Shown: piece by piece, positions 10,497 to 59,156 of the stretch
How the letters are laid out: each line of letters opens with the position of its first letter
Position numbering within the stretch: position 1 is the first letter of the stretch
The notes under the pieces: model-generated
What the model saw: only the letters and a program-made list of their open reading frames with translations
Database searches by the model: none
What the model was told of the DNA's origin: nothing
Origin: a virus
Length of the DNA stretch: 64,000 bases
Virus record (IMG/VR): IMGVR_UViG_3300042473_001265
Span: 248,001 to 312,000 of that record
Reading direction: 5' to 3' (one strand)
Program-made: the position numbers and the translations under genes

Positions 10497-11247
10497 TATC
10501 TTCTTCGACACAGTCACTGCCGTACTGGATCTCAATCAGTTTCAGCGGTTTATCAGTTTCGTTACACAGCTGATGCCATTCACGACATTCAATAAAAGTG
10601 TGTTCATGCACATCAAGCTGGCACTTGACGTCACGGTCTGTGCTGGAGTCTTCCAGTGTGTACACTGTGGCTGTGCCTTCGGCCACAAACCAAAACTCCT
10701 GTCGTAGATCATGGCGTTGCATGCTTAAACAGGTCTGAGGCATCACAGTGAGCTCTTTGAGCTTGGTGTTGGCACCCACTTCGTGCAGCACACGATAGTA
10801 TCCCCAGGCTCGTTCGGTCCGGGGTGCTTTCCATTCTTGCAATATCCAACTGCTAGAATTCTTTTTATCTTCACCGCCTATGCCAAACACAAATGATAAA
10901 TTAGCATCTATCACATCCATTTCTGGAATGTTATCTCGGGTTCTGTCCCCGCCATTGGCAAATATCAGTTCGGCATCGGGGTAATGTGCTCTTGCTTGTT
11001 GAATAAAATGTTTTGCTGATCCGTCATTGTCGTCAAAGGTATAAACTTCGTCAACCATTGATAAATTATTAACAATGCAGAGTCGTTCGTTCCAGGGCAT
11101 AAAGGCTGCACCTTTTTTACGAACCAGCCACTCATCGCTATTGAGGCCAACAATCAACATGTCGCCTAGAGTTTTTGCAGCTTTAAAGTAGGCAATATGT
11201 CCCGAATGCACAGGATCAAATCCACCGGTTACTAATACTATTTTCAT
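10483..11247 (-). CDS. Cytidylyltransferase-like domain fused to a cupin
   Basis: 254 residues. Residues 1-130 form a nucleotidyltransferase of the TagD/RfaE-C type: 'KIVLVTGGFDPVHSGH' with HSGH at 14-17, 'LIVGLNSDEWL', and an 'RLCIVNNLSMVDEVYTF' helix in place of the usual ISTTxI region. From about residue 150, 'WGYYRVLHEV...KLKELTVMPQTCLSMQRHDLRQEFWFVAEGTATVYTL' is a cupin like the C-terminal domain of type II mannose-6-phosphate isomerase/GMP. The pair could activate and isomerise a sugar phosphate for the glycosyltransferases around it. It starts at 11247, directly after a late-type box. Confidence 0.75.
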   Translation of the reverse strand: MKIVLVTGGFDPVHSGHIAYFKAAKTLGDMLIVGLNSDEWLVRKKGAAFMPWNERLCIVNNLSMVDEVYTFDDNDGSAKHFIQQARAHYPDAELIFANGGDRTRDNIPEMDVIDANLSFVFGIGGEDKKNSSSWILQEWKAPRTERAWGYYRVLHEVGANTKLKELTVMPQTCLSMQRHDLRQEFWFVAEGTATVYTLEDSSTDRDVKCQLDVHEHTFIECREWHQLCNETDKPLKLIEIQYGSDCVEEDIERK

Positions 11248-11252
11248 AAAGA

Positions 11253-11260
11253 TATTTATC
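11253..11260 (-). promoter_or_regulatory. Late-type promoter box GATAAATA, leaderless placement
   Basis: On the minus strand GATAAATA is followed by five bases and then the ATG at 11247. No Shine-Dalgarno sequence can fit. It should drive the minus-strand glycan operon. Confidence 0.6.
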
Positions 11261-11272
11261 GTTATATACGCA

Positions 11273-11280
11273 CATAAATA
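11273..11280 (+). promoter_or_regulatory. Late-type promoter box CATAAATA, leaderless placement
   Basis: CATAAATA ends four bases before the ATG at 11285. It is divergent from the box at 11253-11260, with only 12 bp between the two boxes. Confidence 0.6.
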
Positions 11281-11284
11281 TAGA

Positions 11285-12016
11285 ATGACCTCACTGATCG
11301 CCAACACACAGCCACTGGACTGTGCTTGTGTTATACACAGCAACGGATACGACTGGACCTATGTGGATCGACTGTACAGCATGTTATGCAGACATTTGAC
11401 CCGCCCAGTCCGACTACATGTTTATACCGAAGCAACAAGACCAGTTCCGGATCACATGGTCAAGCACTGTTTAGAAGATTGGGGATTTGCTGGGCCCAAA
11501 AAAAGTTGGTGGTATAAACTACAGTTGTTCAACACCCAGCATCATTCAGGCCCCATGTTGTATTTTGATTTAGATGTGGTCATTGCCAACAACATAGACT
11601 GGATCTGGCAATTGAATTTGCGACATTTTTGGTCAATACGGGACTTCAAATATCTGTGGAAGCACAACTGGACCGGATCAAATACCAGTGTGATGTGGTG
11701 GGACACTGCACAATACCAGCATGTGTGGAACACAGTGGTAGATCAGGACATAGACTTCTTTGTTCGTAAATACCGCGGAGATCAGGATTTTGTGTCAGAT
11801 GTAATACCCACGGCACATCGTCGATTTTTTCATTCTGAATGGGTAAAAAGCTGGAAATGGGAATGTGTCGACGGTGGATTTGACTTTGCTCGTAAAAAGC
11901 ACCGCACACCTGGTACAGGAACAACCTTAACCACTGATACCAGTATATTGGTATTTCATGGCCAACCTAAACCGCATGAAATAACAGATGCCACAGTGAT
12001 ATCACACTGGCAGTGA
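11285..12016 (+). CDS. Glycosyltransferase-like protein (GT-A, DLD motif)
   Basis: 243 residues. 'WWYKLQLFN' and 'GPMLYFDLDVVIANNIDWIW' repeat the KLQLF...lYlDLDtvi pattern of the protein at 6557-7195, so the two are paralogs or members of one family. 'TSVMWWDTAQYQHVW' and 'FVSDVIPTAHR' fit the downstream acceptor region. It has a late-type box placed for a leaderless mRNA and is followed after 26 bp by a virion gene with its own late box. Confidence 0.75.
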   Translation: MTSLIANTQPLDCACVIHSNGYDWTYVDRLYSMLCRHLTRPVRLHVYTEATRPVPDHMVKHCLEDWGFAGPKKSWWYKLQLFNTQHHSGPMLYFDLDVVIANNIDWIWQLNLRHFWSIRDFKYLWKHNWTGSNTSVMWWDTAQYQHVWNTVVDQDIDFFVRKYRGDQDFVSDVIPTAHRRFFHSEWVKSWKWECVDGGFDFARKKHRTPGTGTTLTTDTSILVFHGQPKPHEITDATVISHWQ

Positions 12017-12022
12017 TAAATA
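12015..12022 (+). promoter_or_regulatory. Late-type promoter box GATAAATA
   Basis: GATAAATA lies 20 bp before the ATG at 12043. The intervening leader contains a strong AGGAGA ribosome-binding site. Confidence 0.6.
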
Positions 12023-12042
12023 AACATAACAGGAGACCTTAG

Positions 12043-12738
12043 ATGGCCAATAGAACAATACAATTTTGCGGATACGCATACGGTGCAGTGCCGTTACAAT
12101 TAAACGCACACATCAATGGACAAACAGTTTTTAGCGGGGCAGTCGATACATTAACTGAAGATATTCCTGCGTTGCCAATTGATATGACCAATGCACCGGT
12201 ATTGTTTTCAGTGACCGAGTCAGCACTGTTTCCAACCAGTTTCAGCGGTTCGTATCCAATGACAATTTCTGTTGCAACTGGATCCGGCATAATACTTGGC
12301 TTTGTAAAAAGCAACTACATGTCAACAGCAACAAATATGGTAGAATTCAGTGGTTCCATTAGCGACACAACATTGAATGTAAGTAGCGTGACGTCTGGAG
12401 AAATTGTACCCGGCCAGATCATACATAACACTATTATAACCAAAGGAACAACAATTGTATCGGGCAGCGGGTCAACTTGGCAAGTCTCTGAGAGTCAGTT
12501 AGCAGGTGAAGCAACTATAAATGGTGAAATTCTTTTCCCAGGCACCGTGGACACATTTAAAATGTGTTACACTGGAGTTCCTACAAATTCAGACGGCACA
12601 CAAGATTCCCGCAGTAGTGTACAAATTAACGGCGTACCTCAGAGTCGAGAAATACCGCCATCCGGTCAGTGGACATGGTCAGTCGAGGCCGGCAGCACAA
12701 TTGAATACAATTTCAACATTAGTGCGGGCAGTGAGTAA
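12043..12738 (+). CDS. Putative virion structural protein
   Basis: 231 residues, beta-rich, Ser/Thr/Gly-rich, with almost no Lys/Arg. Residues 100-165 contain 'GSISDTTLNVSSV.SGEIVPGQII.N..I..GTTIVSGSGSTWQVS', a repeat-like module seen in many tail-fibre and capsid-decoration proteins. It has a late box, a strong ribosome-binding site and a downstream terminator, so it forms a one-gene late unit and is probably abundant. A decoration or fibre-associated protein is the best guess. Confidence 0.65.
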   Translation: MANRTIQFCGYAYGAVPLQLNAHINGQTVFSGAVDTLTEDIPALPIDMTNAPVLFSVTESALFPTSFSGSYPMTISVATGSGIILGFVKSNYMSTATNMVEFSGSISDTTLNVSSVTSGEIVPGQIIHNTIITKGTTIVSGSGSTWQVSESQLAGEATINGEILFPGTVDTFKMCYTGVPTNSDGTQDSRSSVQINGVPQSREIPPSGQWTWSVEAGSTIEYNFNISAGSE

Positions 12739-12760
12739 CCCTTGCACTGTACAACATCAA

Positions 12761-12786: not shown

Positions 12787-12790
12787 GTGG

Positions 12791-12849: not shown

Positions 12850-12987
12850 ATGCAGTACACATTGATTGCAGGTAATGGTAAAGTATACATTTTTTTTCTA
12901 AAATCTGTAGCTGACTTGTACCAGCAATGCTATGGTGGTGTTGTAATTACGCCACAAGTGCTTGCAGAACAAACAGTTGACCATTAA
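12850..12987 (+). CDS. Small early protein of unknown function
   Basis: 45 residues, starting MQYTLIAGNGKVYIFF. An AAAAGGAATCAC ribosome-binding site precedes the ATG and a strong early promoter lies upstream. Its stop lies inside the spacer of the next promoter. Small early phage proteins often act on host functions; nothing in this one identifies a target. Confidence 0.6.
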   Translation: MQYTLIAGNGKVYIFFLKSVADLYQQCYGGVVITPQVLAEQTVDH

Positions 12988-13005
12988 TTGCTATTCTGCT
13001 ATAAT
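12977..13005 (+). promoter_or_regulatory. Sigma70-type early promoter
   Basis: TTGACC, 17 bp, TATAAT with TGC before the -10. The spacer contains ATTCTGC, shared with the promoters at 47817, 48082 and 48372. It overlaps the end of the upstream small gene. Confidence 0.9.
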
Positions 13006-13040
13006 TAATACTTAAACAACGCACACCAAAGGAGCCAACC

Positions 13041-14063
13041 ATGAGTGCAATTCGTATCGTTCGCGGAGAGTATCGTAAGCGTCCCGTAGCTGACCAAGTG
13101 TTTAGTCTTGTGTCGGGCTTTCAGACCGGCGCCAAAGGCAACTTTGTGACTGTTAAAAATGACGGCAATTTTCCCAATTGCCCAGATACGATCCGTATCC
13201 GTGTTGACAACATTTCTGATATTGAGTATACTAACGGCATGACAGACACAACCACCAACGCTGCCAAGGCAGTGGCTGCACCAGCAGAAACAGAAGAACA
13301 GGCCATGGATCGTATCCGTGAGCGTTTTGACATCCTGCACGAAATGACCAAAGCCACAGTGACAGGCGACATCCGCGCCATGATTGTATCGGGTCCTCCG
13401 GGTGTGGGCAAGAGCTTTGGTGTGGAGCAAGAGATTGAAAAAGCCACCATGTTTGACAAACTGGCAGGCAAGCGACTGCGAGCAGAAGTTGTGAAAGGTG
13501 CTGCTACACCCATTGGCCTGTACCAGACTCTGTACAAGTATTCAGACGCCAATTGCGTGGTTGTGTTTGACGACTGCGACAGTATCCTGTTGGATGACGT
13601 GAGCTTGAACCTGCTGAAGGGTGCATTAGACTCAGGCAAGAAGCGCAAGATTAGCTGGTTGTCAGAAAGCAGCAGCCTGCGCCGCGAAGGCATCCCAGAC
13701 AGTTTTGAATTCAAAGGCAGTGCCATCTTTATCACCAACTTGAAGTTTGACAAGATGAAATCGCAGAAACTGCGGGATCACTTGGATGCACTGCAAAGTC
13801 GTTGCCACTACCTGGATCTGACTTTGGACACCATGCGTGACAAGATTCTGCGTATCAAACAAATTGCCAAAGATGGCGTGTTGTTTGCAGACTACGATTT
13901 TGAACCCGAAGTTCAAGACGAGATCATTGCGTTCATGGACGCCAATCAGAATCGTCTGCGTGAAATGAGTCTGCGCATGGCAATCAAAATTGCAGACCTG
14001 CGCAAGATGAGCATGCTGAACTGGAAGCGTCTGGCAGAAACAACTTGCATGAAGGCGGCATAA
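13041..14063 (+). CDS. AAA+ ATPase
   Basis: 340 residues. After an N-terminal region of about 110 residues of unknown fold comes an AAA+ core: Walker A 'GPPGVGKS' at about 118-125, Walker B 'CVVVFDDCDSIL' near 175, a 'FKGSAIFITN' sensor-1 strand, and an Arg-rich lid. It has an AAAGGAG ribosome-binding site and a strong early promoter. The N-terminal domain does not match a clamp loader or helicase. It resembles the stand-alone ATPases found in many large phages, with no known partner. Three small genes follow it closely. Confidence 0.8.
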   Translation: MSAIRIVRGEYRKRPVADQVFSLVSGFQTGAKGNFVTVKNDGNFPNCPDTIRIRVDNISDIEYTNGMTDTTTNAAKAVAAPAETEEQAMDRIRERFDILHEMTKATVTGDIRAMIVSGPPGVGKSFGVEQEIEKATMFDKLAGKRLRAEVVKGAATPIGLYQTLYKYSDANCVVVFDDCDSILLDDVSLNLLKGALDSGKKRKISWLSESSSLRREGIPDSFEFKGSAIFITNLKFDKMKSQKLRDHLDALQSRCHYLDLTLDTMRDKILRIKQIAKDGVLFADYDFEPEVQDEIIAFMDANQNRLREMSLRMAIKIADLRKMSMLNWKRLAETTCMKAA

Positions 14064-14615: not shown

Positions 14616-14664
14616 CTCATCAGGGTTATTCCCGGGGTTGGTTGGCTCCGCCCCGGACTTTTGG

Positions 14665-14696
14665 CAGGTACCCTTAAAAAAGGTACCTGTTTTTTT
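14665..14696 (+). terminator. Rho-independent terminator
   Basis: Eight-base stem CAGGTACC/GGTACCTG with an A-rich loop, then seven T. A second GC-rich inverted repeat (CCGGGG/CCCCGG, 14632-14656) sits just upstream. The T run merges into the -35 of the next promoter. Confidence 0.85.
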
Positions 14697-14723
14697 GACT
14701 TCTTACTGCAATAAGTATATACT
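14695..14723 (+). promoter_or_regulatory. Sigma70-type promoter, leaderless placement
   Basis: TTGACT, 17 bp, TATACT. Six bases separate the -10 from the ATG at 14730, so the predicted start of transcription is the A of ATG. Confidence 0.7.
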
Positions 14724-14729
14724 ACTGAC

Positions 14730-15530
14730 ATGAAATTGATTTTTTCAAACAATTGCGTTATAGATCTGTCTATAGATGATAGCCCATTGGCCACGACCTA
14801 TCAAAAAATATACAAACATTTGAGTAAGATATCAATACCGTTTAGGCCCTGGGACAATCCTTACTATACAAAAAATTTAACCTATACAGATTTGGTCGAG
14901 CAGTTGATAAAGTATGCACATGGAGTATCGGTTCCTATTGATCGCTCAAAATGTTTGGCTCAGGATCAGATGTATTTTAACAGTATACATAAAATCTATG
15001 AAAAAAATTACAATGGTAATTCTGATTGGTTAGATTTTCACGAACATATTCACATGTGTGAAATGTATTTCAAAAAAACCAATGGTGTATTTTGTATAGA
15101 CTATCGCGAAAAATCTGGGTTACTAGAAAAACCAATTGATCAAAAATGGTTAATCAATACTCAAACAACAATTCAAGCCGGTGATATATATGTGCAGTGG
15201 TCAGAGTTGGGCAAGACACCGTACGCATATTGGATAAACAACGAGCCCAATGACATAAAAAGAATGTGTGAATTGGCCAAGCCCTGGCTGAAACTTAGAC
15301 CAAAGATATATGTGGCACTTGAGGACATGGACCGATTAAAAAACAAACAATGCGATGAATTCTCTTCTTGGTGGAAACATTATCAACATGAGTGGACACA
15401 GCATTGGAATATACCCAGCTGGAACATCGAGAACATATTCGGCGTCAGTGTGTTTGGAAAAACAACTCAACTTGATTTGTTAAAAGAACAATTAAAAAAT
15501 AATGCTGTGCCTGTCAGGGTTACTTTATAA
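14730..15530 (+). CDS. Hypothetical protein
   Basis: 266 residues, soluble, rich in Trp, Tyr and Lys, with no recognisable motif. It contains 'YAYWINNEPNDIKRMCELAKPWLKLRPKIYVALEDMDRL', which suggests an alpha/beta domain. It heads a three-gene unit (to 17354) ending in a hydroxylase-like protein. The TAA overlaps the next ATG. Predicted to be translated from a leaderless message. Confidence 0.6.
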   Translation: MKLIFSNNCVIDLSIDDSPLATTYQKIYKHLSKISIPFRPWDNPYYTKNLTYTDLVEQLIKYAHGVSVPIDRSKCLAQDQMYFNSIHKIYEKNYNGNSDWLDFHEHIHMCEMYFKKTNGVFCIDYREKSGLLEKPIDQKWLINTQTTIQAGDIYVQWSELGKTPYAYWINNEPNDIKRMCELAKPWLKLRPKIYVALEDMDRLKNKQCDEFSSWWKHYQHEWTQHWNIPSWNIENIFGVSVFGKTTQLDLLKEQLKNNAVPVRVTL

Positions 15531-16699: not shown

Positions 16700-17354
16700 A
16701 AAATATGCCAACTGCAATTTGCAGTTGCCGGAGTACAATCCCTCTGCTGATTTTGAGTGGATAATGAACGCTTCTGGGTTGCCATGGTTGCAGTTAGACA
16801 TTGCAGTGCCGTATCAGGATATTCTGCACGAAATCAAAAATATTGAATTGTTGTTGGTAGACCATCGGGACAATTATGGAGAACATCGCGGCTGGAAAAG
16901 TTTTTGCATACACGGAAAGAGTTACGATGCTACTCGTGAAGAAAGTTATTACAATGACAATCGACCGTATGTATGGACAAGTGAAGCACAACAATGTATG
17001 CCATTGACTGTGGATTATTTTGCCACTAAGTGGCCCGGAGGTCAATTTAAAAGAATTCGAGTTATGTTGCTTGAACCCGGCGGATATATAAGCATTCATC
17101 AAGATTACGCAATATCCAAATTGACAGCAATCAACATTGCAATTACACAGCCCACCGAGTGCCAGTTTGTAATGGCCAAACACGGAACAGTGCCTTTTTT
17201 TCCCGGGCAAGCGTTATGGTTAGATATTTCAAATCAGCATGCAGTGATAAACAACAGTGACCAGCCGCGCTGGCACATAATTGTACACCAATCCTTTGAT
17301 AACAGTTTTCAAGACATGGTTGTGAATTCCTATAAAAAATTGTATAATAACTAA
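16668..17354 (+). CDS. Aspartyl/asparaginyl beta-hydroxylase-like cupin
   Basis: 228 residues. 'LEPGGYISIHQDYA' supplies the HxD metal ligands and 'LWLDISNQHAVINNSDQPRWHIIVH' the distal His and a 2-oxoglutarate-binding Arg, the signature of the Asp_Arg_Hydrox family (2OG/Fe(II) dioxygenases). The target could be a protein side chain or a small molecule. The ATG at 16668 gives a 32-bp overlap with the previous gene; the ATG at 16692 (8-bp overlap) is an equally good start and loses only eight residues. Confidence 0.75.
   Translation: MKYEISQLMFKKYANCNLQLPEYNPSADFEWIMNASGLPWLQLDIAVPYQDILHEIKNIELLLVDHRDNYGEHRGWKSFCIHGKSYDATREESYYNDNRPYVWTSEAQQCMPLTVDYFATKWPGGQFKRIRVMLLEPGGYISIHQDYAISKLTAINIAITQPTECQFVMAKHGTVPFFPGQALWLDISNQHAVINNSDQPRWHIIVHQSFDNSFQDMVVNSYKKLYNN
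17320..17348 (+). promoter_or_regulatory. Sigma70-type promoter, near-leaderless placement
   Basis: TTGTGA, 17 bp, TATAAT. Seven bases separate the -10 from the uvsW ATG at 17356. It lies within the 3' end of the upstream gene. Confidence 0.6.
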
Positions 17355-17355
17355 C

Positions 17356-18816
17356 ATGAAAACAGCCACAATCATAATTCGAGACGAAGTCAATATCAAG
17401 ATTGAAGGCCTAGACGCCGACGTTCGTCGTGCGTTGGTCACGGCTTTTAAATATGATGTGCCTGGTGCCAGATATTTGCCCGCAGTGCGCCTGGGCAGAT
17501 GGGATGGCAAGGTCAGTTACTTTCAATTGGGCGGTAGTACCTATGTAAATTTATTGCCGGACATTGTGCCCATACTGGAAAAGTTCAACTATGACATTGA
17601 ACTGGACGATCAGCGCACATACTCAACCACATTTGATTTTGATCATATCAAAGAAGATTCGTTTGCTCACAAAACATGGCCTAAAACACATCCGATAGCA
17701 GGACAACCAGTTGTTCTGCGCGACTACCAGGTTGAGATCATCAATGCTTTCTTGGGCAATCCGCAATGCATCCAAGAAGTGGCCACAGGAGCAGGCAAAA
17801 CACTGATGACAGCAGCGCTGAGTTTGAGCATTGAGCCGTATGGTCGTAGCATTGTTATTGTGCCCAACAAAAGTTTGGTCACACAAACTGAAGCAGACTA
17901 TGTGAATTTAGGCCTGGATGTGGGTGTGTACTTTGGCGACCGTAAAGAACATGGTCGCACACACACGATATGCACTTGGCAAAGTTTAAATGTGTTGATG
18001 AAGAATACCAAAGCTGGTGTAGCAGACATTACCATACAGGACTTCATTGAAGATGTGGTGTGTGTCATGGTTGACGAAGTACACATGGCCAAGGCCGACG
18101 CTCTCAAAACTCTGCTGACCGGAGTCATGTCTAGAGTGCCAATTCGATGGGGCTTGACTGGAACTGTGCCCAAAGAACCATTTGAGTTTCAAGCGCTGAA
18201 GTGTAGTCTAGGTCCAGTTATTAATCAACTCAGTGCCAGCGAACTACAGGATCGTGGTGTGTTGGCGCAGTGTCATGTGAACATTGTGCAGCTGGTCGAT
18301 CATGCAGAATTTTCAAACTATCAAAGTGAGTTGAAGTTTTTATTAGAAGATCCTGATAGACTTGCAGCCATTTCTGGATTGGTAACACAAGTAAATGACA
18401 CTGGGAATACTCTGGTGTTGGTGGATCGTGTGGCAGCTGGCCATGCGCTGGTTGAACTACTGGGAGACCGAGCAGTATTTGTGTCGGGTGCCACCAAAGG
18501 AACTAAAAGGCAGGAAGAATATGACGAAATTGCAACAAGCACTGGCAAGATTATTGTGGCGACTTACGGTGTGGCCGCTGTGGGTATTAATATCCCTAGG
18601 ATTTTTAATTTGGTTCTTGTGGAGCCCGGAAAGAGCTTTGTTCGCGTTATACAAAGTATTGGGCGAGGTATTAGAAAAGCAGAAGACAAGGATCACGTCC
18701 AGATCTGGGATGTGACCAGCACTTGTAAATTTGCCAAGCGTCACTTGACCAAACGAAAAGTATTCTACAGAGATGCCAACTATCCCTTCTCACAGGAAAA
18801 GTTAGAGTGGAAATAA
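17356..18816 (+). CDS. uvsW: UvsW-like superfamily 2 DNA helicase
   Basis: 486 residues, close to T4 UvsW (about 500). The N-terminal 100 residues are a UvsW-type accessory domain ('VRLGRWDGKVSYF'). Then come a Q-like 'LRDYQVEIINAFL', Walker A 'TGAGKT' at about 143-148, DEVH at about 240, 'WGLTGTVPKE' (motif III), and motif VI 'QSIGRGIRK' near the C-terminus. It unwinds branched DNA and R-loops, which helps switch from origin- to recombination-dependent replication. Its promoter is placed for a near-leaderless mRNA. Confidence 0.93.
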   Translation: MKTATIIIRDEVNIKIEGLDADVRRALVTAFKYDVPGARYLPAVRLGRWDGKVSYFQLGGSTYVNLLPDIVPILEKFNYDIELDDQRTYSTTFDFDHIKEDSFAHKTWPKTHPIAGQPVVLRDYQVEIINAFLGNPQCIQEVATGAGKTLMTAALSLSIEPYGRSIVIVPNKSLVTQTEADYVNLGLDVGVYFGDRKEHGRTHTICTWQSLNVLMKNTKAGVADITIQDFIEDVVCVMVDEVHMAKADALKTLLTGVMSRVPIRWGLTGTVPKEPFEFQALKCSLGPVINQLSASELQDRGVLAQCHVNIVQLVDHAEFSNYQSELKFLLEDPDRLAAISGLVTQVNDTGNTLVLVDRVAAGHALVELLGDRAVFVSGATKGTKRQEEYDEIATSTGKIIVATYGVAAVGINIPRIFNLVLVEPGKSFVRVIQSIGRGIRKAEDKDHVQIWDVTSTCKFAKRHLTKRKVFYRDANYPFSQEKLEWK

Positions 18817-18819: not shown

Positions 18820-18847
18820 TTGCGATTTCTAACAAACCTGCTATAAT
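18820..18847 (+). promoter_or_regulatory. Sigma70-type promoter, leaderless placement
   Basis: TTGCGA, 16 bp, TATAAT with TGC before it. Six bases separate the -10 from the ATG at 18854. Confidence 0.75.
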
Positions 18848-18853
18848 AACAAC

Positions 18854-19357
18854 ATGCGAATTCTACAATTAGACACAAACACATTCTTTGATCTTGATCA
18901 TCTTCCGGAAGAAGTTGATGACATGAGATTTGCTATATTTGACAACAGTGATCCTAGAGATCCCGACTATCATTATATTCCATTGATTTTTCTCGAAAGT
19001 TTCAACGCTCCTGCACTGGTATTAAAAATTGGCGAGCACAAGATACGCATGCCCATGGACTGGCAAGTGTTGATCGGCGAACCGGACGTGGGTGATCTCG
19101 AAGTGTTGCCTTTGACCAGCATCAATGATCGTGGGTTTAAAGTGTTTGAATTCAACCCGCTTAGTAGTTTCCGCCCAAGTTTTCCCACCATTGAGATTGT
19201 GGATGTGTATCATGAAGTGGCATGGTATGCCCCCAAACTAAAAAACGGACAGATGTTGTGTGTTCCTATTTCAGATGGTCCCAAGCCCGAGTGTGTTTAC
19301 TTTGTCAAAGACATCAGCCGCAATTGTGAAATTGTTGACTATTCGCGAGCTTGGTAA
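18854..19357 (+). CDS. Hypothetical protein at the head of the clamp-loader-like operon
   Basis: 167 residues, acidic, with a regular alternation of hydrophobic strands and no enzyme motif ('MPMDWQVLIGEPDVGDLEVLPL', 'MLCVPISDGPKPECVYFVKDI'). The mRNA should be leaderless. Its stop overlaps the next start (TAATG). The close tie to a replication gene order (UvsW before, primase and helicase after) suggests a DNA-metabolism accessory protein. Confidence 0.65.
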   Translation: MRILQLDTNTFFDLDHLPEEVDDMRFAIFDNSDPRDPDYHYIPLIFLESFNAPALVLKIGEHKIRMPMDWQVLIGEPDVGDLEVLPLTSINDRGFKVFEFNPLSSFRPSFPTIEIVDVYHEVAWYAPKLKNGQMLCVPISDGPKPECVYFVKDISRNCEIVDYSRAW

Positions 19358-21397: not shown

Positions 21398-21749
21398 TAC
21401 TTTTTCTTTTGCCCTTCTTCAGTGCAATGTCTGCAAGACTACACACAGGTCCGTGCAAGATTTCTAGGTCTTTGTTGGCAAATGTGCGCAGGCAAGGCTT
21501 GAACATTTCCCAGTCTTTTTTCAGAAAAATGTTGATGGGAATGCTGCGATTGCTTTCCCACCACCATATATTGGCCAACTCCAAAAACTTCTGTTTCATT
21601 GCAGAATCGTGTATGCTGCCAAAGTCGTATATGGTAGTGATTGCGGCATCTTGATTCTGAACGATCCCCACATATTCCGTAGATGAATACACGCACAGCG
21701 TGATAAACGGATACTGTTCAGTTAGTTTTGTAAAGATATCGTTGCCCAT
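21372..21749 (-). CDS. Hypothetical late phage protein
   Basis: 125 residues, single domain, with 'YDFGSIHDSAMKQKFLELANIWWWESNRSIPINIFLKKDWEMF' at its centre. This arrangement recurs in small proteins of T4-like phages but has no known role. A full TATAAATA late box on the minus strand is positioned five bases before the ATG. The 3' end overlaps that of the DnaE-like gene by 26 bp. Confidence 0.65.
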   Translation of the reverse strand: MGNDIFTKLTEQYPFITLCVYSSTEYVGIVQNQDAAITTIYDFGSIHDSAMKQKFLELANIWWWESNRSIPINIFLKKDWEMFKPCLRTFANKDLEILHGPVCSLADIALKKGKRKSITLVRRME

Positions 21750-21754
21750 CTGGA

Positions 21755-21762
21755 TATTTATA
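21755..21762 (-). promoter_or_regulatory. T4-consensus late promoter TATAAATA, leaderless placement
   Basis: Exact TATAAATA on the minus strand with five bases before the ATG at 21749. No ribosome-binding site is possible in the predicted transcript. Confidence 0.7.
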
Positions 21763-21813: not shown

Positions 21814-21820
21814 CTAAATA
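21814..21820 (+). promoter_or_regulatory. Late-type promoter box CTAAATA, leaderless placement
   Basis: CTAAATA ends six bases before the ATG at 21827. It is divergent from the minus-strand TATAAATA at 21755-21762. Confidence 0.6.
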
Positions 21821-21826
21821 CATCAT

Positions 21827-22939
21827 ATGTATTCAACCACTGTATACCTTTACCAGCAAGTAATTAGAGTTCTAACTCCTGACACCAGTGGTGCTTATTT
21901 CAATCTGAGGTACGATCCTGTGTATGCTAAAAAACTAACAATTAACAAAGGTGTTGACAATGTGGTGTTGTTTGAATTCATCAATCAAGATGAAAAACCT
22001 GTAAACATCACCGGCAGCGCACTGACATTCAGAATTGTCAGTCAAAACGGCGCAGAAGTACTGGCACAAAAAGACATGGTCATTATCAATGCTGCTTATG
22101 GTCGTGCCAAAGTAACACTGACTCCAGCTGATCTGGATGTTGTACAGGCACAGCCAGCAGGCTACAGTATTGTGCGAGCCAGTGGCAATCTAACAGAAGC
22201 AGTGTTTACTGATGCTCAAGCTGGCGCTAGAGCACCAGTTGACATTGTAGACAGCGTATATCCAGAGTTTGTGCCCAGTGTTGAATTAACAATTCCCACT
22301 GTTAATCTGTCAGCGCAGACCAGTTATGGTGGCAGCAGTGGATCACAATATCCAGATTGGGCCCTGCAGGCCGGTCAATTCATCGGATCAACCACACCGT
22401 ATCAGAGCACTGAATATTTCAGCAGTCAGATTGAACCCATGGGCCCAGTGACCAGCATACAGATGGACCTGATTGGCTACACCGGCACTATCAAAGCACA
22501 GGCAGCAGAAACATATCAAAGCATCTGGTACAATGTGACACCGTCTACACAGTACTTGAATGCAACCGAAACTATTCATATGACAGTGATTGGATGGCAT
22601 CCCTTGTTGCGCCTGTGTTTCAACAACAGTGTGACCACCACTGGCATCAACGGAACAAACTTTGGAGTGGCAGCCACAGCCAATGCTGTGGTAACTGACG
22701 GAGTTGTCACCAGTGTATCTATTACCAACCCTGGATTCGGCTACCAAGCTCCACCGCTGATTACATTTGTGGGCAATGGTGCAGGCGCCACTGCAACATC
22801 CACCATCGGAGAAAATGGCATTGTGACTGATATCAATTTGGTGTCAGGCGGCTCAGGATATCGTCCAAATCCCTACACCATGCTGTCAATTGCTGTGATA
22901 GTGTCCACTGGGTATGTGGAAAATATAAAATACCGTTAA
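21827..22939 (+). CDS. Putative virion structural protein (baseplate or fibre-associated)
   Basis: 370 residues. The first 130 look like a BppU/phage fibre N-terminal domain ('DNVVLFEFINQDEKPVNITGSALTFRIVS', 'VTLTPADLDVVQAQPAGYSIV'), which plugs fibres to the baseplate. The C-terminus has two short Gly-rich repeats ('SITNPGFGYQAPPLITFVGNGAGATAT', 'LVSGGSGYRP') of a type common in marine phage structural proteins. The late box is placed for a leaderless message. Confidence 0.75.
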   Translation: MYSTTVYLYQQVIRVLTPDTSGAYFNLRYDPVYAKKLTINKGVDNVVLFEFINQDEKPVNITGSALTFRIVSQNGAEVLAQKDMVIINAAYGRAKVTLTPADLDVVQAQPAGYSIVRASGNLTEAVFTDAQAGARAPVDIVDSVYPEFVPSVELTIPTVNLSAQTSYGGSSGSQYPDWALQAGQFIGSTTPYQSTEYFSSQIEPMGPVTSIQMDLIGYTGTIKAQAAETYQSIWYNVTPSTQYLNATETIHMTVIGWHPLLRLCFNNSVTTTGINGTNFGVAATANAVVTDGVVTSVSITNPGFGYQAPPLITFVGNGAGATATSTIGENGIVTDINLVSGGSGYRPNPYTMLSIAVIVSTGYVENIKYR

Positions 22940-22950: not shown

Positions 22951-22979
22951 TTGATTGTTGCAGTAAAACATGTTATAAT
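22951..22979 (+). promoter_or_regulatory. Sigma70-type promoter, leaderless placement
   Basis: TTGATT, 17 bp, TATAAT preceded by TGT (extended -10). Six bases separate the -10 from the primase ATG at 22986. Confidence 0.75.
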
Positions 22980-22985
22980 ACTAAC

Positions 22986-23978
22986 ATGATTGATGTGTTG
23001 GCATTTTTACCTGCAAAAAGAAAACAGTCTAGTTCTGGATGGCTCAGTTTCAATGCACCCTGTTGCGTACACAACGGCAACACACCAGATCGCAGAAGCA
23101 GAGGCGGCATTAAACTTTCCGAACAAGGCTGGAGTTATCACTGCTTCAACTGTGGATACACTGCAAGTTTCATACTGGGACGCAATATCAGTTTCAAAGC
23201 ACGTCGACTGCTTGAATGGTTAGGCGTTCCAGAAAACGACATCAATCAAATCAATCTTGAAAGCATGCGCCATCGCAGCATGGAAGGCATGCTGGAGGAT
23301 CGTCAGCGTGTGTGGAACCAGTTGGCACCAATAGAATTCAAAGAAGCAGATCTTCCTGATTTTGTAGATTTTGTAACACCCGATACTCCTAAAGAATGGG
23401 CATACCTACAAAGCAGACATGTGCCAGAAGATTATCCTGTAATGGTAGTACAGCCGGGTTTCAGGGAAGGTGTTGTAGTGCCATTCACATACAACAACCG
23501 AGTTGTAGGCAGTACAATACGATTTTTAGACAATCGTAATCCACGCTACATCAATGACATGCCCCGGGGCTATGTGTTTGGCATGGATCTACAGCAAACA
23601 GGATGGCAACATGTGATTGTGACCGAAGGCATCTTTGATGCGTTATGCATTGGTGGGCTGGCAGTGATGCACAATGAGATAAGTGACGAGCAGGTAAGAT
23701 TGATACGCAGTTTAGGTCGCGATGTCACAGTGGTGCCGGATCAAGATTCAGCAGGACTTGCACTGATAGACCGTGCAGTAGAGTTGGGGTGGGCAGTGAG
23801 TATTCCTGATTGGCCAGACCAAGTAAAAGACGTCAATGACGCTGTGAAACTGTGGGGAAAGCTGCCAACCTTGCTAACTATACTGCAATCAAGAGAGACA
23901 AGTAAGATAAAAATTGAGTTGCGGAAACGACAACTTGAAAAGAAAATCAACAGACCAAGAGAACTACTAGATGCTTAA
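22986..23978 (+). CDS. DNA primase (gp61/DnaG-like)
   Basis: 330 residues. An N-terminal zinc ribbon uses Cys26/Cys27, His29, Cys53 and Cys56. A toprim domain follows with 'HVIVTEGIFDALCI' (the catalytic Glu) and 'DVTVVPDQDSAGLALI' (DxD). T4 gp61 is 342 residues, so size and domain order agree. It makes RNA primers with the adjacent helicase. Its last eight bases overlap the helicase start, as expected of a coupled primosome. Confidence 0.92.
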   Translation: MIDVLAFLPAKRKQSSSGWLSFNAPCCVHNGNTPDRRSRGGIKLSEQGWSYHCFNCGYTASFILGRNISFKARRLLEWLGVPENDINQINLESMRHRSMEGMLEDRQRVWNQLAPIEFKEADLPDFVDFVTPDTPKEWAYLQSRHVPEDYPVMVVQPGFREGVVVPFTYNNRVVGSTIRFLDNRNPRYINDMPRGYVFGMDLQQTGWQHVIVTEGIFDALCIGGLAVMHNEISDEQVRLIRSLGRDVTVVPDQDSAGLALIDRAVELGWAVSIPDWPDQVKDVNDAVKLWGKLPTLLTILQSRETSKIKIELRKRQLEKKINRPRELLDA

Positions 23979-28182: not shown

Positions 28183-28190
28183 GATAAATA
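28183..28190 (+). promoter_or_regulatory. Late-type promoter box GATAAATA
   Basis: GATAAATA lies 22 bp before the ATG at 28213, with AAAGGTG in the leader. Confidence 0.6.
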
Positions 28191-28212
28191 ACACAAAGGT
28201 GTCAGGCCCAAA

Positions 28213-28461
28213 ATGCAAAAGAAAACTAGAAGTTTGTTAGAAGAACTCGATTCAATGTACGTTGAGCGTGACAACCGCCATGTGATTGAAAACCGTGCCA
28301 GTAACATCATAGCCAGTGCCATACGCCTGCTAGAGCAGATTGACTCCATTTACGAGCCCGAAACTGCTAAGAATTTACAACGCAAATTGCTCAATGCCAT
28401 CAACCTGCGTGACCCAGGCAAATTTACCAGAACCGTGAGAAAAACTGATGCAAATTCATGA
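28213..28461 (+). CDS. Small helical protein, late structural operon
   Basis: 82 residues, all helix-forming and charged ('[36 protein letters not shown]'). Late promoter box upstream. It overlaps the next gene by 14 bp. It probably acts in assembly or as a minor virion component; no family is recognised. Confidence 0.65.
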
Positions 28462-32371: not shown

Positions 32372-32378
32372 TTAAATA
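32372..32378 (+). promoter_or_regulatory. Late-type promoter box TTAAATA, leaderless placement
   Basis: TTAAATA ends seven bases before the ATG at 32386. Confidence 0.55.
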
Positions 32379-32385
32379 CTTCATT

Positions 32386-32640
32386 ATGATGGTGAGCAAG
32401 ATTACCGAAGTGACGATATTTGAAAGTCCAGATGGCGGCCGGACAGTGTATGCACGTCACCCAGGCGCACAGAATCGGTCACTGCATTATCAAGATCCCA
32501 AACTAAAACAAGAACTAGATGAATTAGAACACAAGCGCCGCTGGGCAGAAATATTTGAATCCCGGCACAACAATGTAGCACTCAATGAACTGTGCAGTAA
32601 AGTTGAAGTGCTGTATGAATTGAGTAAAAAGAACAAATGA
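32386..32640 (+). CDS. Hypothetical small protein, late operon
   Basis: 84 residues, starting MMVSKITEVTIFESPDGGRTVYARHPG; the rest is a charged helix ('LKQELDELEHKRRWAEIFES'). Late box in leaderless position; an internal ATG at 32389 is an alternative start. Stop overlaps the next start (ATGA). Function unknown. Confidence 0.6.
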   Translation: MMVSKITEVTIFESPDGGRTVYARHPGAQNRSLHYQDPKLKQELDELEHKRRWAEIFESRHNNVALNELCSKVEVLYELSKKNK

Positions 32641-47816: not shown

Positions 47817-47845
47817 TTGACCCAAAATCGCCATTCTGCTATAAT
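47817..47845 (+). promoter_or_regulatory. Sigma70-type early promoter, leaderless placement
   Basis: TTGACC, 17 bp, TATAAT preceded by TGC. Six bases separate the -10 from the ATG at 47852. Its spacer shares CCATTCTGC with the promoters at 48082 and 48372. Confidence 0.85.
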
Positions 47846-47851
47846 ACAGTT

Positions 47852-48085
47852 ATGAAATTAGATGTTAACGAAATTTTGCAGTGGGCCGGCGCTGTATTCA
47901 TAGTGGCCGGGCATAGCCTGAACGCCATGGGCCCGGAGGCTTACCCCTACAATATACTTACATTCTTTGTGGGAACAATACTGTTTCTAGCATGGACTAT
48001 TCGTGTTGCAAATAAACCACAAATGTTTGTGAATCTTGTAAGTGTAGCCATTGGCTTTTCTGGGCTGGTAAAAGCATTTGGTTGA
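47852..48085 (+). CDS. Small membrane protein
   Basis: 77 residues from the ATG at 47852. Three hydrophobic helices are predicted (about 9-26, 34-51 and 57-75). An upstream in-frame start would lie inside the promoter and is rejected. The stop (TGA) overlaps the -35 of the next promoter. Function unknown. Confidence 0.65.
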   Translation: MKLDVNEILQWAGAVFIVAGHSLNAMGPEAYPYNILTFFVGTILFLAWTIRVANKPQMFVNLVSVAIGFSGLVKAFG

Positions 48086-54451: not shown

Positions 54452-54459
54452 TATAAATA
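54452..54459 (+). promoter_or_regulatory. T4-consensus late promoter TATAAATA, leaderless placement
   Basis: Exact TATAAATA; six bases before the ATG at 54466. Confidence 0.7.
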
Positions 54460-54465
54460 CACATT

Positions 54466-56214
54466 ATGATATTCGGATACTTTACATTATTTGTTGCACT
54501 GGTCATCAGTGCAGTGGCAGAGTTCTATAGCATTATAGGCCTGACTTCTATTTTTTCCGCAGCTTTTTGGCCGGTGGTTATTATGGGTGTTGCACTTGGA
54601 GTAGGCAAAATCACAGCCGCAATTTGGTTGAAATTAAATTGGCACCGTGCCAGTATAACTTATAAACTGTATCTGGTTCCAGCACTGGTATTCCTCATGT
54701 TGTTGACCAGCATGGGCATTTTTGGCTTTTTGAGCAAGGCACACAGCGATCAAAGTCTGGTGTCGGGCGATGTTACCAGTAAGATTGCAATATATGATGA
54801 AAAAATCAAAACCGAAAAAGAGAATATTGAAGCAAACCGTAAGGCACTTAAACAGATGGATGAAGGAGTGGACCAAGTACTGGGCCGCTCAACATCAGAA
54901 ACGGGTGCCGACAAAGCTGTGGCTCTGCGTCGAGCCCAGCAGAAAGAACGTGCTCGCCTTCAAGCTGAAATATCGCAGTCGCAAAAGTCTATTGCGGAAC
55001 TTAACGATGCCCGTGCGCCTATTGCCGCTGAGGTCCGTAAAGTTGAAGCCGAGGTTGGACCAATAAAATACATTGCGGCATTTATCTATGGTGATAATCC
55101 CGACGCCAATTTGTTGGAAAAAGCAGTGACATGGGTGATTATTATTATTGTTGCAGTGTTTGATCCTCTGGCGCTGATGTTAATTCTTGCTGCTCAACAA
55201 AGTATAAAATGGAATCGTGAAGAAACGGATGAAGACGCCCACAAAAGGATTGAGCAAGAGTTAACAGAAACAATGCAGGATCTCGGCAGAGTGGCCGAGC
55301 CCAAGTATGAAGCCGACGACGGCGCGTTGACCGGCCATCAGGTTGAACAGATTAAAAAAACACTAGCACAGCAACACCCTTATCTGGACCAGCCGTTTGT
55401 GCATTTTAAAAATCTTACACCAATGGTGTATAAACCGGGTGAAACAACTACACTGCCAAAACATCCAAGCATCAATGACTTTGTACCGCAGACCACAGAG
55501 TACATCATTGAAGAAGATACTATCCCTTGTCACAAGTGCGGCACTGATTTAGTAAATGCACCGGGCATCGGGCTATTTTGCCCCAACAAGGCGTGTGATG
55601 TACTAGACGGCCCATTGTGGGATGATCAACTAGAACTTGATTTTACCCAGCCATTGCCCTCAGAGTACCGTTCTTACAAATTGTTTGTGCAACCGGAAAC
55701 AGTGGTTGAGCCAGAAGTGCAGCCACCAACAACAATTATCAGCAGCGACGACCCAATGGATGACGATGTCGAACTTAGTTCGATGGATTCTGTTGAAAAG
55801 GACGCGGCCAGACGATGGAAAGCAGCTCACCCCGGCCACACTTTGAAATTTCAACGACGACTAGTTGACATGGGAAAACTGGCACAACTTCCTTGGTTGG
55901 CAGCAGAATACAATTCTAGCTTGGTTCCAGATATTGATTTGGGCAATGAAACACAATCAGGATTTGGCATTGCGTTTCCTACTGCTCCCAACAAAGGCGA
56001 CAGCTATCTGCGTGTAGACCGACTGCCAAGTGTGCTGTACAAGTTCAATGGCCTTGGCTGGATAGAAGTAGACAAAGCTCTCAGTGACCGTTACGCACAC
56101 GACGAAGCATACATTGATTATCTCATCTCCAAGATAGACACTGGTGAGTATGATCCAGACCTGCTGAGTGATGCCGAGAGAGAACAGATTGAACAAAGAT
56201 TAACTGGAAACTAG
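54466..56214 (+). CDS. Membrane protein with coiled coil and zinc-binding motif
   Basis: 582 residues. Predicted membrane segments at about 1-25, 29-51, 66-88 and 222-245; a long charged coiled coil (about 110-205) between the third and fourth. The C-terminal half is soluble and contains 'CHKCGTDL...FCPNKAC', a four-Cys zinc ribbon (about 351-370). The mix suggests a scaffolding or membrane-tethering protein. No known homolog family is recognised. Confidence 0.7.
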   Translation: MIFGYFTLFVALVISAVAEFYSIIGLTSIFSAAFWPVVIMGVALGVGKITAAIWLKLNWHRASITYKLYLVPALVFLMLLTSMGIFGFLSKAHSDQSLVSGDVTSKIAIYDEKIKTEKENIEANRKALKQMDEGVDQVLGRSTSETGADKAVALRRAQQKERARLQAEISQSQKSIAELNDARAPIAAEVRKVEAEVGPIKYIAAFIYGDNPDANLLEKAVTWVIIIIVAVFDPLALMLILAAQQSIKWNREETDEDAHKRIEQELTETMQDLGRVAEPKYEADDGALTGHQVEQIKKTLAQQHPYLDQPFVHFKNLTPMVYKPGETTTLPKHPSINDFVPQTTEYIIEEDTIPCHKCGTDLVNAPGIGLFCPNKACDVLDGPLWDDQLELDFTQPLPSEYRSYKLFVQPETVVEPEVQPPTTIISSDDPMDDDVELSSMDSVEKDAARRWKAAHPGHTLKFQRRLVDMGKLAQLPWLAAEYNSSLVPDIDLGNETQSGFGIAFPTAPNKGDSYLRVDRLPSVLYKFNGLGWIEVDKALSDRYAHDEAYIDYLISKIDTGEYDPDLLSDAEREQIEQRLTGN

Positions 56215-57424: not shown

Positions 57425-57429
57425 ATTTA

Positions 57430-57460
57430 TTGACAGATGTTGAGATATCTGTTATAAATA
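57430..57460 (+). promoter_or_regulatory. Overlapping sigma70-type and late promoter
   Basis: TTGACA, 17 bp, TATAAA at 57453-57458; extending this to TATAAATA (57453-57460) gives the exact T4 late box. One sequence can therefore serve both early and late polymerase. Confidence 0.7.
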
Positions 57461-57525
57461 ATCGTGTAGTGCCCATGGTGGGGCTACATTTTAAAAGTCA
57501 TCTTGCTTAATAAAGGAGAAAACAA

Positions 57526-57984
57526 ATGACAAAAACTCTCACCCTTCGCTCTTTCGACATTCCTGCAATTCACAAATTTGGCATCGGATTCGACAACATG
57601 TTTGATGATCTCATGCGTGTGAGTGCTCAACAATCTACCACAAATTATCCACCTTATGATATTGTACAAATCAACGAAGATGAGTACATGATTGCTGTGG
57701 CTGTGGCCGGATTTGGCGACGACAATCTTTCAGTGATCAAGGACAAAAAAGTTTTGGTCATTGAAGGTAAGCACAGCCGTGAAACTGTGGACAATGAAGA
57801 TTCTACTGCAAAATATCTGCACAAAGGCATCAGTGAAAGACATTTCCGCAGGGAATTTCAGTTGGCTGATCATGTGGAAATTGTCAATGCAAATCTTGAA
57901 CTGGGCATCTTGAGCATACACCTAAAGCGTGATATTCCTGAAGAAGCCAAGCCAAAGACCATTGCAATCAACTACAAAAAGTAA
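57526..57984 (+). CDS. Small heat-shock protein (Hsp20/IbpA-like)
   Basis: 152 residues. Alpha-crystallin domain from about 42-130 ('YDIVQINEDEYMIAVAVAGF', 'LVIEGKHS', 'FRREFQLADHVEIVNANLELGILSIHL'), with the L/G motif G-I-L-S-I. C-terminal 'IAINYKK' supplies the IxI-like oligomer tail. N-terminal 40 residues are the variable arm. It holds unfolded proteins for refolding. AAAGGAGAAAAC is the ribosome-binding site. Confidence 0.92.
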   Translation: MTKTLTLRSFDIPAIHKFGIGFDNMFDDLMRVSAQQSTTNYPPYDIVQINEDEYMIAVAVAGFGDDNLSVIKDKKVLVIEGKHSRETVDNEDSTAKYLHKGISERHFRREFQLADHVEIVNANLELGILSIHLKRDIPEEAKPKTIAINYKK

Positions 57985-57990
57985 TATAAT
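57962..57990 (+). promoter_or_regulatory. Sigma70-type promoter
   Basis: TTGCAA, 17 bp, TATAAT. A transcript starting near 57997 would begin within seven bases of a perfect hairpin (58003-58025). Confidence 0.5.
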
Positions 57991-58002
57991 AATCATAAGT
58001 AC

Positions 58003-58025
58003 AGTGGCAGCACAGTGCTGCCACT
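58003..58025 (+). other. Perfect hairpin in clpS leader
   Basis: Ten-base stem AGTGGCAGCA/TGCTGCCACT with a CAG loop. It lacks a T run, so it is not a normal terminator. It lies 20 bp before the clpS ATG, just ahead of its AAAGGA ribosome-binding site. Confidence 0.7.
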
Positions 58026-58045
58026 ACTACAACAAAGGACACACT

Positions 58046-58360
58046 ATGACATCACCAGATATCAATACATTAATCAAATCAAAAGTAGAACTGCGTGAAC
58101 CACCAATGTTTAAGATCATCTACTTGAACGACACCAAGACATCTGTAGATTTTGTAGTTGAAAGTTTAATCACACACTTTGAATACACAGCAGACACTGC
58201 TGTCGCCATCACTGAAGATATCCATAATTCTGGATCCGCAGTGGTAGCAGTATTGCCCTACGAAATTGCTGAACAAAAAGGCATCGAAGTCACTGTGGAT
58301 GCTCGCAATCATAATTTTCCATTGCAGATCAAGCTGGAACCTGAAACAGTTGTGCATTGA
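58046..58360 (+). CDS. clpS: ClpS-like adaptor
   Basis: 104 residues from the ATG at 58046 with AAAGGAC upstream. 'FKIIYLNDTKTSVDFVVESLITHFEYTADTAVAITEDIHNSGSAVVAVLPYEIAEQK' matches the ClpS core: the ND(D) pair and hydrophobic pocket that binds N-degron residues, and the 'A..I...vH..G.a.v..y..E.AE.k' helix. ClpS normally feeds ClpA; here the neighbouring unfoldase is ClpX. The signature Asp pair is N-D rather than D-D. Confidence 0.88.
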   Translation: MTSPDINTLIKSKVELREPPMFKIIYLNDTKTSVDFVVESLITHFEYTADTAVAITEDIHNSGSAVVAVLPYEIAEQKGIEVTVDARNHNFPLQIKLEPETVVH

Positions 58361-58367
58361 ATAAAAT

Positions 58368-59156
58368 TTAAAAATCTATGCTGATGCGTTTGGGATAATA
58401 AGTTGGTGTCCAGCCACTGTCTTCTTGTCGGCCCTTGCAATTGTTCACATAGCGTACCCCGTTGATGTTGCGATCTACTGAATTGTGATAGTGACCAAAG
58501 CACCATGTGTCTATTTTGTTTTCAGTGTCTTCGTCCAGCACTAGCGACATGTGCGAATTACCCATTTTGTTGAACTCGTAGGTGTCGGTTATGCTGACAT
58601 CGTGACTGATAAGATCCATGGCAGGCACAGTGTGCGTGACCACAACAATGCGTTTGACATCTGAATGTGTTTGTAGTTTTTTAACACTGTTGATTAGATA
58701 AGCAACATCATCAAATGCAAAAGACTCTATTTCTGCGGTGGTATCGTAATTGGTTTTCATCACATCAGTCCACCACAGCTTGCACTGTTGTTCGTCTATG
58801 TTGCGATCAAAGTCCCAGGTCCACCATCCATTGGTGCCAATGATAGCAACACCATTGATGATCACACAGTTGTTTTGTAAAAACACAACATTTGGAATGT
58901 CAGTTATTGCTTCTTCCAGTATGGAATAACTTTGTTCAATCACATCTAAATTGTATCTGTGTTCGTTGTTGCCATCTATATAAAACACTGCTTGATAGCA
59001 TTTGCCCAAGTGCTCAAGAGTTTCTCTTACCACTTCTACATCACGGGAAATGTCTCCGGCAACTATACAAATAGGACTGGTAGCTTGCCCCATCCAGTCC
59101 AGGGTCTCATGCGGATCCAAATGCAGGTCGGAAATTAAATCAAAGGTCATTTGCAT
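58368..59156 (-). CDS. Calcineurin-like metallophosphoesterase
   Basis: 262 residues. Motifs DLHLD (DxH), GDIS, GNNEH, VTHT and GHYHN are the five metal-binding blocks of the family. Close to cellular YfcE/ICC-type enzymes; substrate (cyclic nucleotide, phosphodiester or protein) not predictable. Late-like TTAAATA lies six bases before its ATG. It converges with clpS. Confidence 0.88.
   Translation of the reverse strand: MQMTFDLISDLHLDPHETLDWMGQATSPICIVAGDISRDVEVVRETLEHLGKCYQAVFYIDGNNEHRYNLDVIEQSYSILEEAITDIPNVVFLQNNCVIINGVAIIGTNGWWTWDFDRNIDEQQCKLWWTDVMKTNYDTTAEIESFAFDDVAYLINSVKKLQTHSDVKRIVVVTHTVPAMDLISHDVSITDTYEFNKMGNSHMSLVLDEDTENKIDTWCFGHYHNSVDRNINGVRYVNNCKGRQEDSGWTPTYYPKRISIDF

Follow-up and report, generated by a model that had tools for sequence, protein, structure and literature searches.

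Predicted leaderless transcription from sigma70-type and T4-type late promoters in an uncultured jumbo-phage group

Leaderless messages in described phages and bacteria

Among bacteria that use Shine-Dalgarno (SD) sites, leaderless translation usually counts as a minor mode. Here we consider a set of promoters that end a few base pairs before the ATG of their genes in an uncultured virus, the 340,172-base record IMGVR_UViG_3300042473_001265, and chiefly in positions 248001-312000 of that record, a 64,000-nucleotide stretch that we call the window and whose numbering is used for coordinates and gene names unless stated otherwise. Several described systems come close. In the Thermus phage phiYS40, most middle and late mRNAs are leaderless, and the published view is that infection shifts the host initiation factors, with IF2 going up and IF3 going down (PMC3594737). 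The Thermus phylum itself uses leaderless mRNAs widely, and in Deinococcus-Thermus a -10 box just before the ATG gives a leaderless mRNA (PMC12340547). Those genes with a -10 box adjacent to the open reading frame (ORF) represent a cellular trait of one phylum, whereas the trait considered here is that of a phage and is also seen with a T4-type late box. The likeness to phiYS40 is that of a phage making leaderless mRNAs, which in our case are predicted from sequence; the difference is its Thermus host, whereas here the boxes are of the sigma70 and T4 late types and the named relatives by primase infect proteobacteria.

For Cluster O mycobacteriophages, leaderless mRNAs have been predicted from the promoters PL1 and PR2 (PMC4351075); the passage in question deals with these two promoters and describes neither a late-sigma class nor systematic use. 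In Lactococcus cremoris, leaderless and leadered classes coexist with no leaders of 4-14 nt (PMC10986495), an empty range that resembles the gap in box distances described below, although it concerns host mRNAs mapped by RNA sequencing and not a phage programme. T4 late transcription, with its TATAAATA box and the proteins gp55, gp33 and gp45, has in common with this virus the box word and a gp55-family sigma factor. However, two T4 stretches totalling 80 kb have 13 late boxes at 15-30 bp from a gene start and not a single one at the 4-7 bp that is also used here.

A sequence-only reading of the window had proposed that systematic leaderless initiation would be new for the T4-like group. The proposal stands in so far as T4 shows no such case in the 80 of 169 kb covered; it is weakened by the leaderless phage mRNAs already reported (phiYS40) or predicted (mycobacteriophages) and by single cases in cultured relatives. 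Novelty is further tempered because phage transcripts have been said to be "often leaderless" in a paper whose own phage, AR9, has leaders of 26-491 nt (PMC5312081). In the open-access literature, including passages of PMC9004378, PMC13282480, PMC9693318 and PMC3037559, we found no account of T4-type late promoters that give leaderless transcripts, nor any of such transcripts in this phage group; most subscription papers lie outside that search. As far as it reaches, the new element is that a single jumbo-phage group would make systematic leaderless use of sigma70 and of T4-type late promoters alike.

Promoter placement in the viral genome and in uncultured relatives

We suggest, with a probability of roughly 0.87, that a set of genes in this virus is transcribed as leaderless mRNAs from sigma70-type and T4-type late promoters, alongside other genes with SD leaders. 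Each promoter is placed so that the expected transcription start coincides with the A of the ATG or lies no more than about 2 nt from it; host sigma70 would read the -35, often a TG, and the TATAAT, and a phage gp55-type sigma presumably reads TAAATA. The ribosome, probably as a 70S particle, would then start on the 5'-terminal AUG without an SD site, and the same genome uses ordinary SD leaders for other genes, including those for tail sheath, tail tube and portal. Initiation by 70S ribosomes on a 5'-terminal AUG is a known route for leaderless mRNAs (PMC12340547).

Counts in the virus's own genome cover 164 kb of the 340 kb, that is, the window and five further 20-kb stretches, and chance expectations are the rates of boxes at other ATGs of the same DNA. 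A sigma70 box was accepted at 9 or more of 12 matches here, in the distance profile of the relatives and in named phages, and at 8 of 12 in the per-family orthologue counts. Among 259 candidate gene-start ATGs, ten are preceded by a sigma70 box at a distance of 5-7 bp and 15 by TAAATA at 4-7 bp. These 25 boxes, of two unrelated promoter classes, fall on 25 different genes of the 176 called, about one in seven (two of them doubtful), where 1.88 were expected (Poisson P 8e-20). One of the doubtful two, 27663, lies inside an open frame starting at 27435; the other is a terminase gene outside the window (L166:10208).

The distances are bimodal, being either 4-7 bp or about 15-45 bp, the latter often with an SD site. 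Sigma70 boxes (230 gene ATGs) number five at 6 bp, two at 7 bp and none at 8-14 bp, and are scattered from 15 bp up, with the highest number at 30 bp. TAAATA lies at 4, 5 and 6 bp from 3, 8 and 4 of the 259 gene ATGs, compared with 4, 2 and 3 of 6053 other ATGs; farther out there is one at 12 bp, belonging to the second ATG of 59156, and there are 21 at 15-26 bp, 15 of these with an SD word. The late box (TAAATA or TATAAATA) is enriched before gene starts at both distances, and some of the genes concerned are virion genes.

Because the codon-score gene caller used for the own-genome, distance-profile and named-phage counts misplaces some starts, caller-free and family-based counts were added. 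The caller gave wrong starts for 11285, 22986 and 59156 and missed 14730 and 21749; eight of the twelve sites singled out by the sequence-only reading are among the 25, while 14730, 11285, 21749 and 32386 fall outside because the caller missed either the gene or its start. Without the caller, an ORF of at least 60 aa is opened at 19 of 26 TAAATA-N4-7-ATG places and 7 of 12 TATAAT-N5-7-ATG places in the 164 kb, compared with 1347 of 6326 ATGs generally. Over the whole record, TAAATA-N4-7-ATG occurs 40 times versus 10 for the reversed pattern, and TATAAT-N5-7-ATG 26 times versus 9. To the idea that TA-rich boxes are simply to be expected near ATGs, and that the reader picked them out, we give almost no weight. 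The places that open no such ORF (7 of 26 and 5 of 12) do mean that some matches are noise, 47852 perhaps among them, but the P value, the conservation in relatives and the lack of any such box in the T4 stretches, which are more AT-rich, all speak for something other than chance. On the P value, chance is rejected for the set, though not for single members.

Relatives were sampled as the best 80 of 324 loci for the primase and the best 80 of at least 598 for the helicase (L004-L163), which alone, at 1.62 Mb, make up the distance profile. The per-family orthologue counts also include the best 80 of 117 further loci and two scans giving 40 and 49 loci (L175-L343), with one match per locus and query at E 1e-8; dropped were alignments starting after residue 4, those with less than 60 nt upstream or no nearby start codon, and repeated identical 45-nt upstreams. 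A peak in box-to-ATG distance together with depletion of SD sites had been predicted for such relatives, and both are seen. Sigma70 boxes number 125 at 6 bp versus 3.0 expected, with 14 at 5 bp and 17 at 7 bp, and TAAATA boxes number 73 versus 2.5 at 4-8 bp (9, 13, 26, 17 and 8 at 4, 5, 6, 7 and 8 bp, versus 0.37, 0.46, 0.83, 0.65 and 0.18). An SD word at -18 to -5 is present in none of the 142 cases with a sigma70 box at 6-7 bp and none of the 48 with TAAATA at 4-6 bp, zeros that follow in part from the box itself occupying the place of an SD site. Elsewhere in the relatives, it precedes 83 of 103 leadered late genes, 81 of 165 leadered sigma70 genes, 200 of 1398 box-less gene ATGs and 3076 of 40203 other ATGs.

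Taken by family, the twelve genes retain the leaderless geometry in 312 of 440 distinct orthologue upstreams, compared with 19 of 261 for nine comparison genes (three more had no relatives). Among the latter, 19803 keeps it in 9 of 75, 20479 in 6 of 28, 13041 in 0 of 45 and 28213 in 0 of 31. An additional gene outside the window (L166:11807) keeps it in 17 of 17 orthologue upstreams. The most telling case is 21827, where 37 of 57 orthologues are leaderless and all of the other 20 have an SD word; similarly, the 22 orthologues of 20479 other than the six leaderless ones all have one. Two of seven orthologues of 14730 have TAAATA in place of the sigma70 box, still 4-5 bp before the ATG, and at 54466 the flanking DNA differs widely from one relative to another, yet 24 of 28 representative upstreams have TAAATA at 4-7 bp. 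Our reading of these patterns is that the spacing itself is under selection.

It could be argued that the boxes are not promoters but unstructured, AT-rich regions for translation initiation, or sites for S1, with transcripts starting farther upstream and translation proceeding independently of SD sites. Regions of this kind exist in bacteria, the 5' ends considered here are deduced ones, and SD words are likewise missing from most non-leaderless orthologues of 17356 and 21749 (present in 3 of 55 and 2 of 35). However, a -35 is retained about 17 bp upstream in the sigma70 cases, as is a TG before the -10 of the primase, and such elements would be useless for translation; among primase orthologues the -35, TG and -10 are conserved at a fixed distance and other columns vary. 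The sigma70 distance is fixed at 6 bp, and the late cases keep TAAATA, the very word found upstream of the 21 leadered genes. We consider this explanation improbable, and on the conserved -35, TG and -10 at fixed spacing a translation region without a promoter is rejected.

Slightly less probable still is that the ATGs are not the true starts, so that ordinary promoters would be followed by a short SD leader and a downstream start codon. The start codons are predicted, and within the first 30 codons an internal ATG or GTG with a 5-nt SD word is present in a few orthologues, numbering 8 of 86 for 18854 and 1 of 27 for 21749. Such internal starts are nonetheless found in none of the other seven families, and in all nine families the mismatches of leaderless orthologues to window codons 2-11 are mostly at third positions, clearly so in eight and weakly in 18854. 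In the primase and helicase scans, alignments begin from residue 1 in 79 of 80 loci each. Wrong start codons are rejected on this codon periodicity from codon 2.

The position of the transcription start within a few nucleotides is a finer matter. Relative to a transcription start, TATAAT ends at about -7 and TATAAATA has its final A at about -6, so that with distances of 6 bp (sigma70) and 5 bp (late) the A of the ATG would be +1. Among the genes of the record is one for a gp55-family late sigma factor (phrog_234, E 1.7e-23, record positions 181179-181520), and the TAAATA boxes can therefore be read as T4-type late promoters. A variant in which leaders are very short (1-5 nt), with starts scattered around the ATG and mixed initiation, seems to us unlikely as a full account, though it overlaps with leaderless transcription rather than excluding it. 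TAAATA lies anywhere from 3 to 7 bp away in most representative orthologue upstreams, mostly at 7 bp in the relatives of L166:11807, and at 9-10 bp in nine of 31 from 21749; the sigma70 peak at exactly 6 bp points the other way.

Several observations weigh against leaderless transcription as proposed. The box-to-start offsets are general background values, the transcription starts are deduced from box distance, and a distance of 7-8 bp would leave a leader of 1-3 nt; the boxes of 21749 at 9-10 bp and the partly forced SD zeros belong here as well. The relatives are non-independent samples, because the loci centre on few genes, and three of the five scans are best-80 sets. A rule of "either leaderless or SD" is not general, because the non-leaderless orthologues of 17356 and 21749 mostly have no SD word. 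Two of the twelve sites, 11285 and 47852, are weak members, the latter being without relatives among the sampled loci and in a frame that opens at an upstream TTG. The box of L166:10208 is present only in a 100% identical copy among 15 listed upstreams and is absent from divergent orthologues. Finally, IF3_C, ribosomal S21 and a PemK/MazF-type RNase, the three families looked for, any of which might have pointed to a reprogramming of ribosomes, were not found in the phage record, so no phage-made aid to leaderless starts is in evidence, other translation factors lying outside that search.

The twelve sites and two leadered contrasts

All twelve boxes of the sequence-only reading are present at the places and distances it gave, each before an in-frame ATG. 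Seven are strong, 17356 and 21749 are kept in about a third of orthologues, 14730 is fair, and 11285 and 47852 are weak. The five sigma70-type promoters are on the plus strand. The gene at 22986 is indeed a primase, with TTGATT-17-TATAAT, a TG before the -10 and 6 bp to the ATG (22951..22988), and 60 of 63 orthologue upstreams keep the arrangement; one orthologue (L077, 9859) has TATACT-6-GTG. Likewise, 17356 is UvsW-like, a helicase of phrog_16 (E 3.7e-72), with TTGTGA-17-TATAAT and 7 bp (17320..17358) and 30 of 85 orthologue upstreams in agreement. The gene at 18854 (phrog_11279, function unknown) has TTGCGA-16-TATAAT and 6 bp (18820..18856), kept in 83 of 85, and the 77-aa reading at 47852 has TTGACC-17-TATAAT and 6 bp (47817..47854) with 0 of 0 orthologues.

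The fifth, 14730, a 266-aa ORF without a PHROG, has TTGACT-17-TATACT and 6 bp (14695..14732), and three of seven orthologues share the geometry. At 14660-14732, a hairpin and T-run, recognized by eye, merge into this promoter, the T-run giving TTTTTTTGACTT as the -35, and hairpin, -35, -10 and leaderless ATG are packed within about 70 bp; the hairpin has a 9-base loop and hence falls outside the computed hairpin list. Similar hairpin-promoter cassettes recur before helicase orthologues, in several of L084-L163, and before distant radical-SAM-like matches. In three orthologues of 14730 (L133, L063, L049), AATAAGTACAC stands directly before a GTG start, where others have TAAATA or TATACT, and may be a variant box.

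Among the late boxes, that of 11247, a cytidylyltransferase-like gene (phrog_7878), is TAAATA at 5 bp (11245..11258, minus strand) and is kept in 5 of 5 orthologues; that of 11285, a glycosyltransferase-like gene (phrog_1962), is TAAATA at 4 bp (11275..11287, plus strand) and is kept in 1 of 5. The two boxes diverge within one 37-bp intergenic region (11245-11287), both at leaderless distance. The gene at 21749 (phrog_11637, function unknown) has TATAAATA at 5 bp (21747..21760, minus strand; 22 of 57 orthologues), and 21827, which has partial virion-protein matches and adjoins the primase, has TAAATA at 6 bp (21815..21829, plus strand). Two further plus-strand genes are an 84-aa gene at 32386, with TAAATA at 7 bp (32373..32388; 6 of 6 orthologues), and a 582-aa gene of unknown function at 54466, with TATAAATA at 6 bp (54452..54468), kept in 44 of 47 orthologues down to 43% identity. 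The metallophosphoesterase gene at 59156 (phrog_1649) has TTTAAATA at 6 bp (59154..59168, minus strand; 21 of 23 orthologues), and one orthologue (L292) has TAAATA-3-GTG. At 59154-59183, the conserved block CATATTTAAAAGGA forms the leaderless late box of 59156 in one direction and an SD-like AAGGA of the divergent gene 59183 in the other; because the block serves both strands, its conservation has two possible causes.

The reading had also held that other genes keep normal SD leaders, and this is seen both in the leadered late genes of the relatives and in two plus-strand contrast genes in the window. The gene at 28213 has its late box 22 bp before the ATG (28185..28215), and 28 of its 31 orthologues, none of them leaderless, have an SD word. 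The gene at 13041 (phrog_1250) has AAAGGAG ahead of its ATG and a sigma70 promoter at a distance of 35 bp (12977..13043); an SD word is present in 44 of 45 orthologues, again with none leaderless.

Leader class, gene content and cultured relatives

Function scans against PHROGs covered 10 of 19 leadered late genes and 10 of 15 leaderless genes outside the window. Six of the leadered genes match virion families (tail sheath, tail tube, portal, head-tail adaptor and two tail or tail-fibre families), two match families of unknown function and two match none. The leaderless genes scanned (eight late, two sigma70) include six with named functions, namely two endonucleases, a homing endonuclease, a radical SAM protein, the terminase with its doubtful start and one virion structural protein. 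Those of the window comprise primase, helicase, metallophosphoesterase, the cytidylyltransferase-like and glycosyltransferase-like genes and 21827 with its partial virion matches. This suggests, as a hypothesis from a small and unblinded sample with two virion-like leaderless exceptions, that SD leaders go with high output.

More tentatively, and as a possibility that we hold to be doubtful, translation might run in two channels, with leader class acting as a selected dosage switch: SD leaders would serve mass-produced virion parts, leaderless starts, from early and late promoters alike, would serve enzymes and low-copy parts, and genes such as 21827 and 20479 would flip mode in evolution. Infection might also shift the host ribosome pool toward 5'-AUG initiation, in which case phage genes would be partly independent of SD-based host control. 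The prevalence of leaderless promoter placement suggests that the host either carries out 5'-AUG initiation well or is made to do so when infected. With two initiation modes side by side in one genome, and even among orthologues of one gene, the group offers a system for asking why a leader class is chosen. For annotation, gene callers that seek SD sites would presumably have none to find at such starts.

As to the host, scanning genome contigs with the primase gave 18 pattern matches but no relative, and a search for tRNAs in the window, the five stretches and L344 found none. REGB_T4 matched nothing anywhere, controls included, and is uninformative. Among cultured relatives, annotated translation genes include an initiation factor 3 in Munch (L173 38705-39211) and a ribosomal protein S21 in PA5oct (L348 955-1161); neither domain was found in this record.

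Among the matches listed, the primase shows 28-32% identity to its counterparts in jumbo phages such as Agrobacterium Atu_ph07, Sinorhizobium Phosso, Salicola SCTP-2, Pseudomonas PA5oct and Salmonella Munch. In partial genomes of named phages, observed over expected counts of the leaderless geometry are 0/1.6 in T4 (80 kb), 0/0.8 in Atu_ph07, 0/0.3 in Phosso, 0/0.6 in Munch, 3/1.8 in PA5oct, 2/1.4 in RAS14, 3/0.9 in SCTP-2, 3/1.8 in Mosig, 1/0.8 in Cr30, 1/0.2 in P-SSM2 and 5/0.27 in XacN1 (P 9e-6), one of the last five being probably false, as its ATG lies a few codons into a gene that is annotated with an SD-led start. Given these counts, the systematic form is seen, among the phages sampled, only in the uncultured group. 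Of the nine late cases in named phages, eight have a distance of exactly 5 bp, and some do not coincide with the annotated start. In the 91 kb of Xanthomonas phage XacN1 covered, three TAAATA boxes are exactly 5 bp from an annotated start (L347 28151 and 29465; L352 39774), versus 0.04 expected.

The gene just before the primase gives a further comparison. In Munch, it matches 21827 weakly (E 8e-4, a single pairwise comparison) and has a distant box and AGAGG. In PA5oct, the corresponding gene, EST35_0222, whose product is annotated as detected by mass spectrometry, also matches 21827 weakly (E 6e-7 over one 83-aa stretch, a single pairwise comparison) and has ATAAATACGTGT-ATG at its annotated start.

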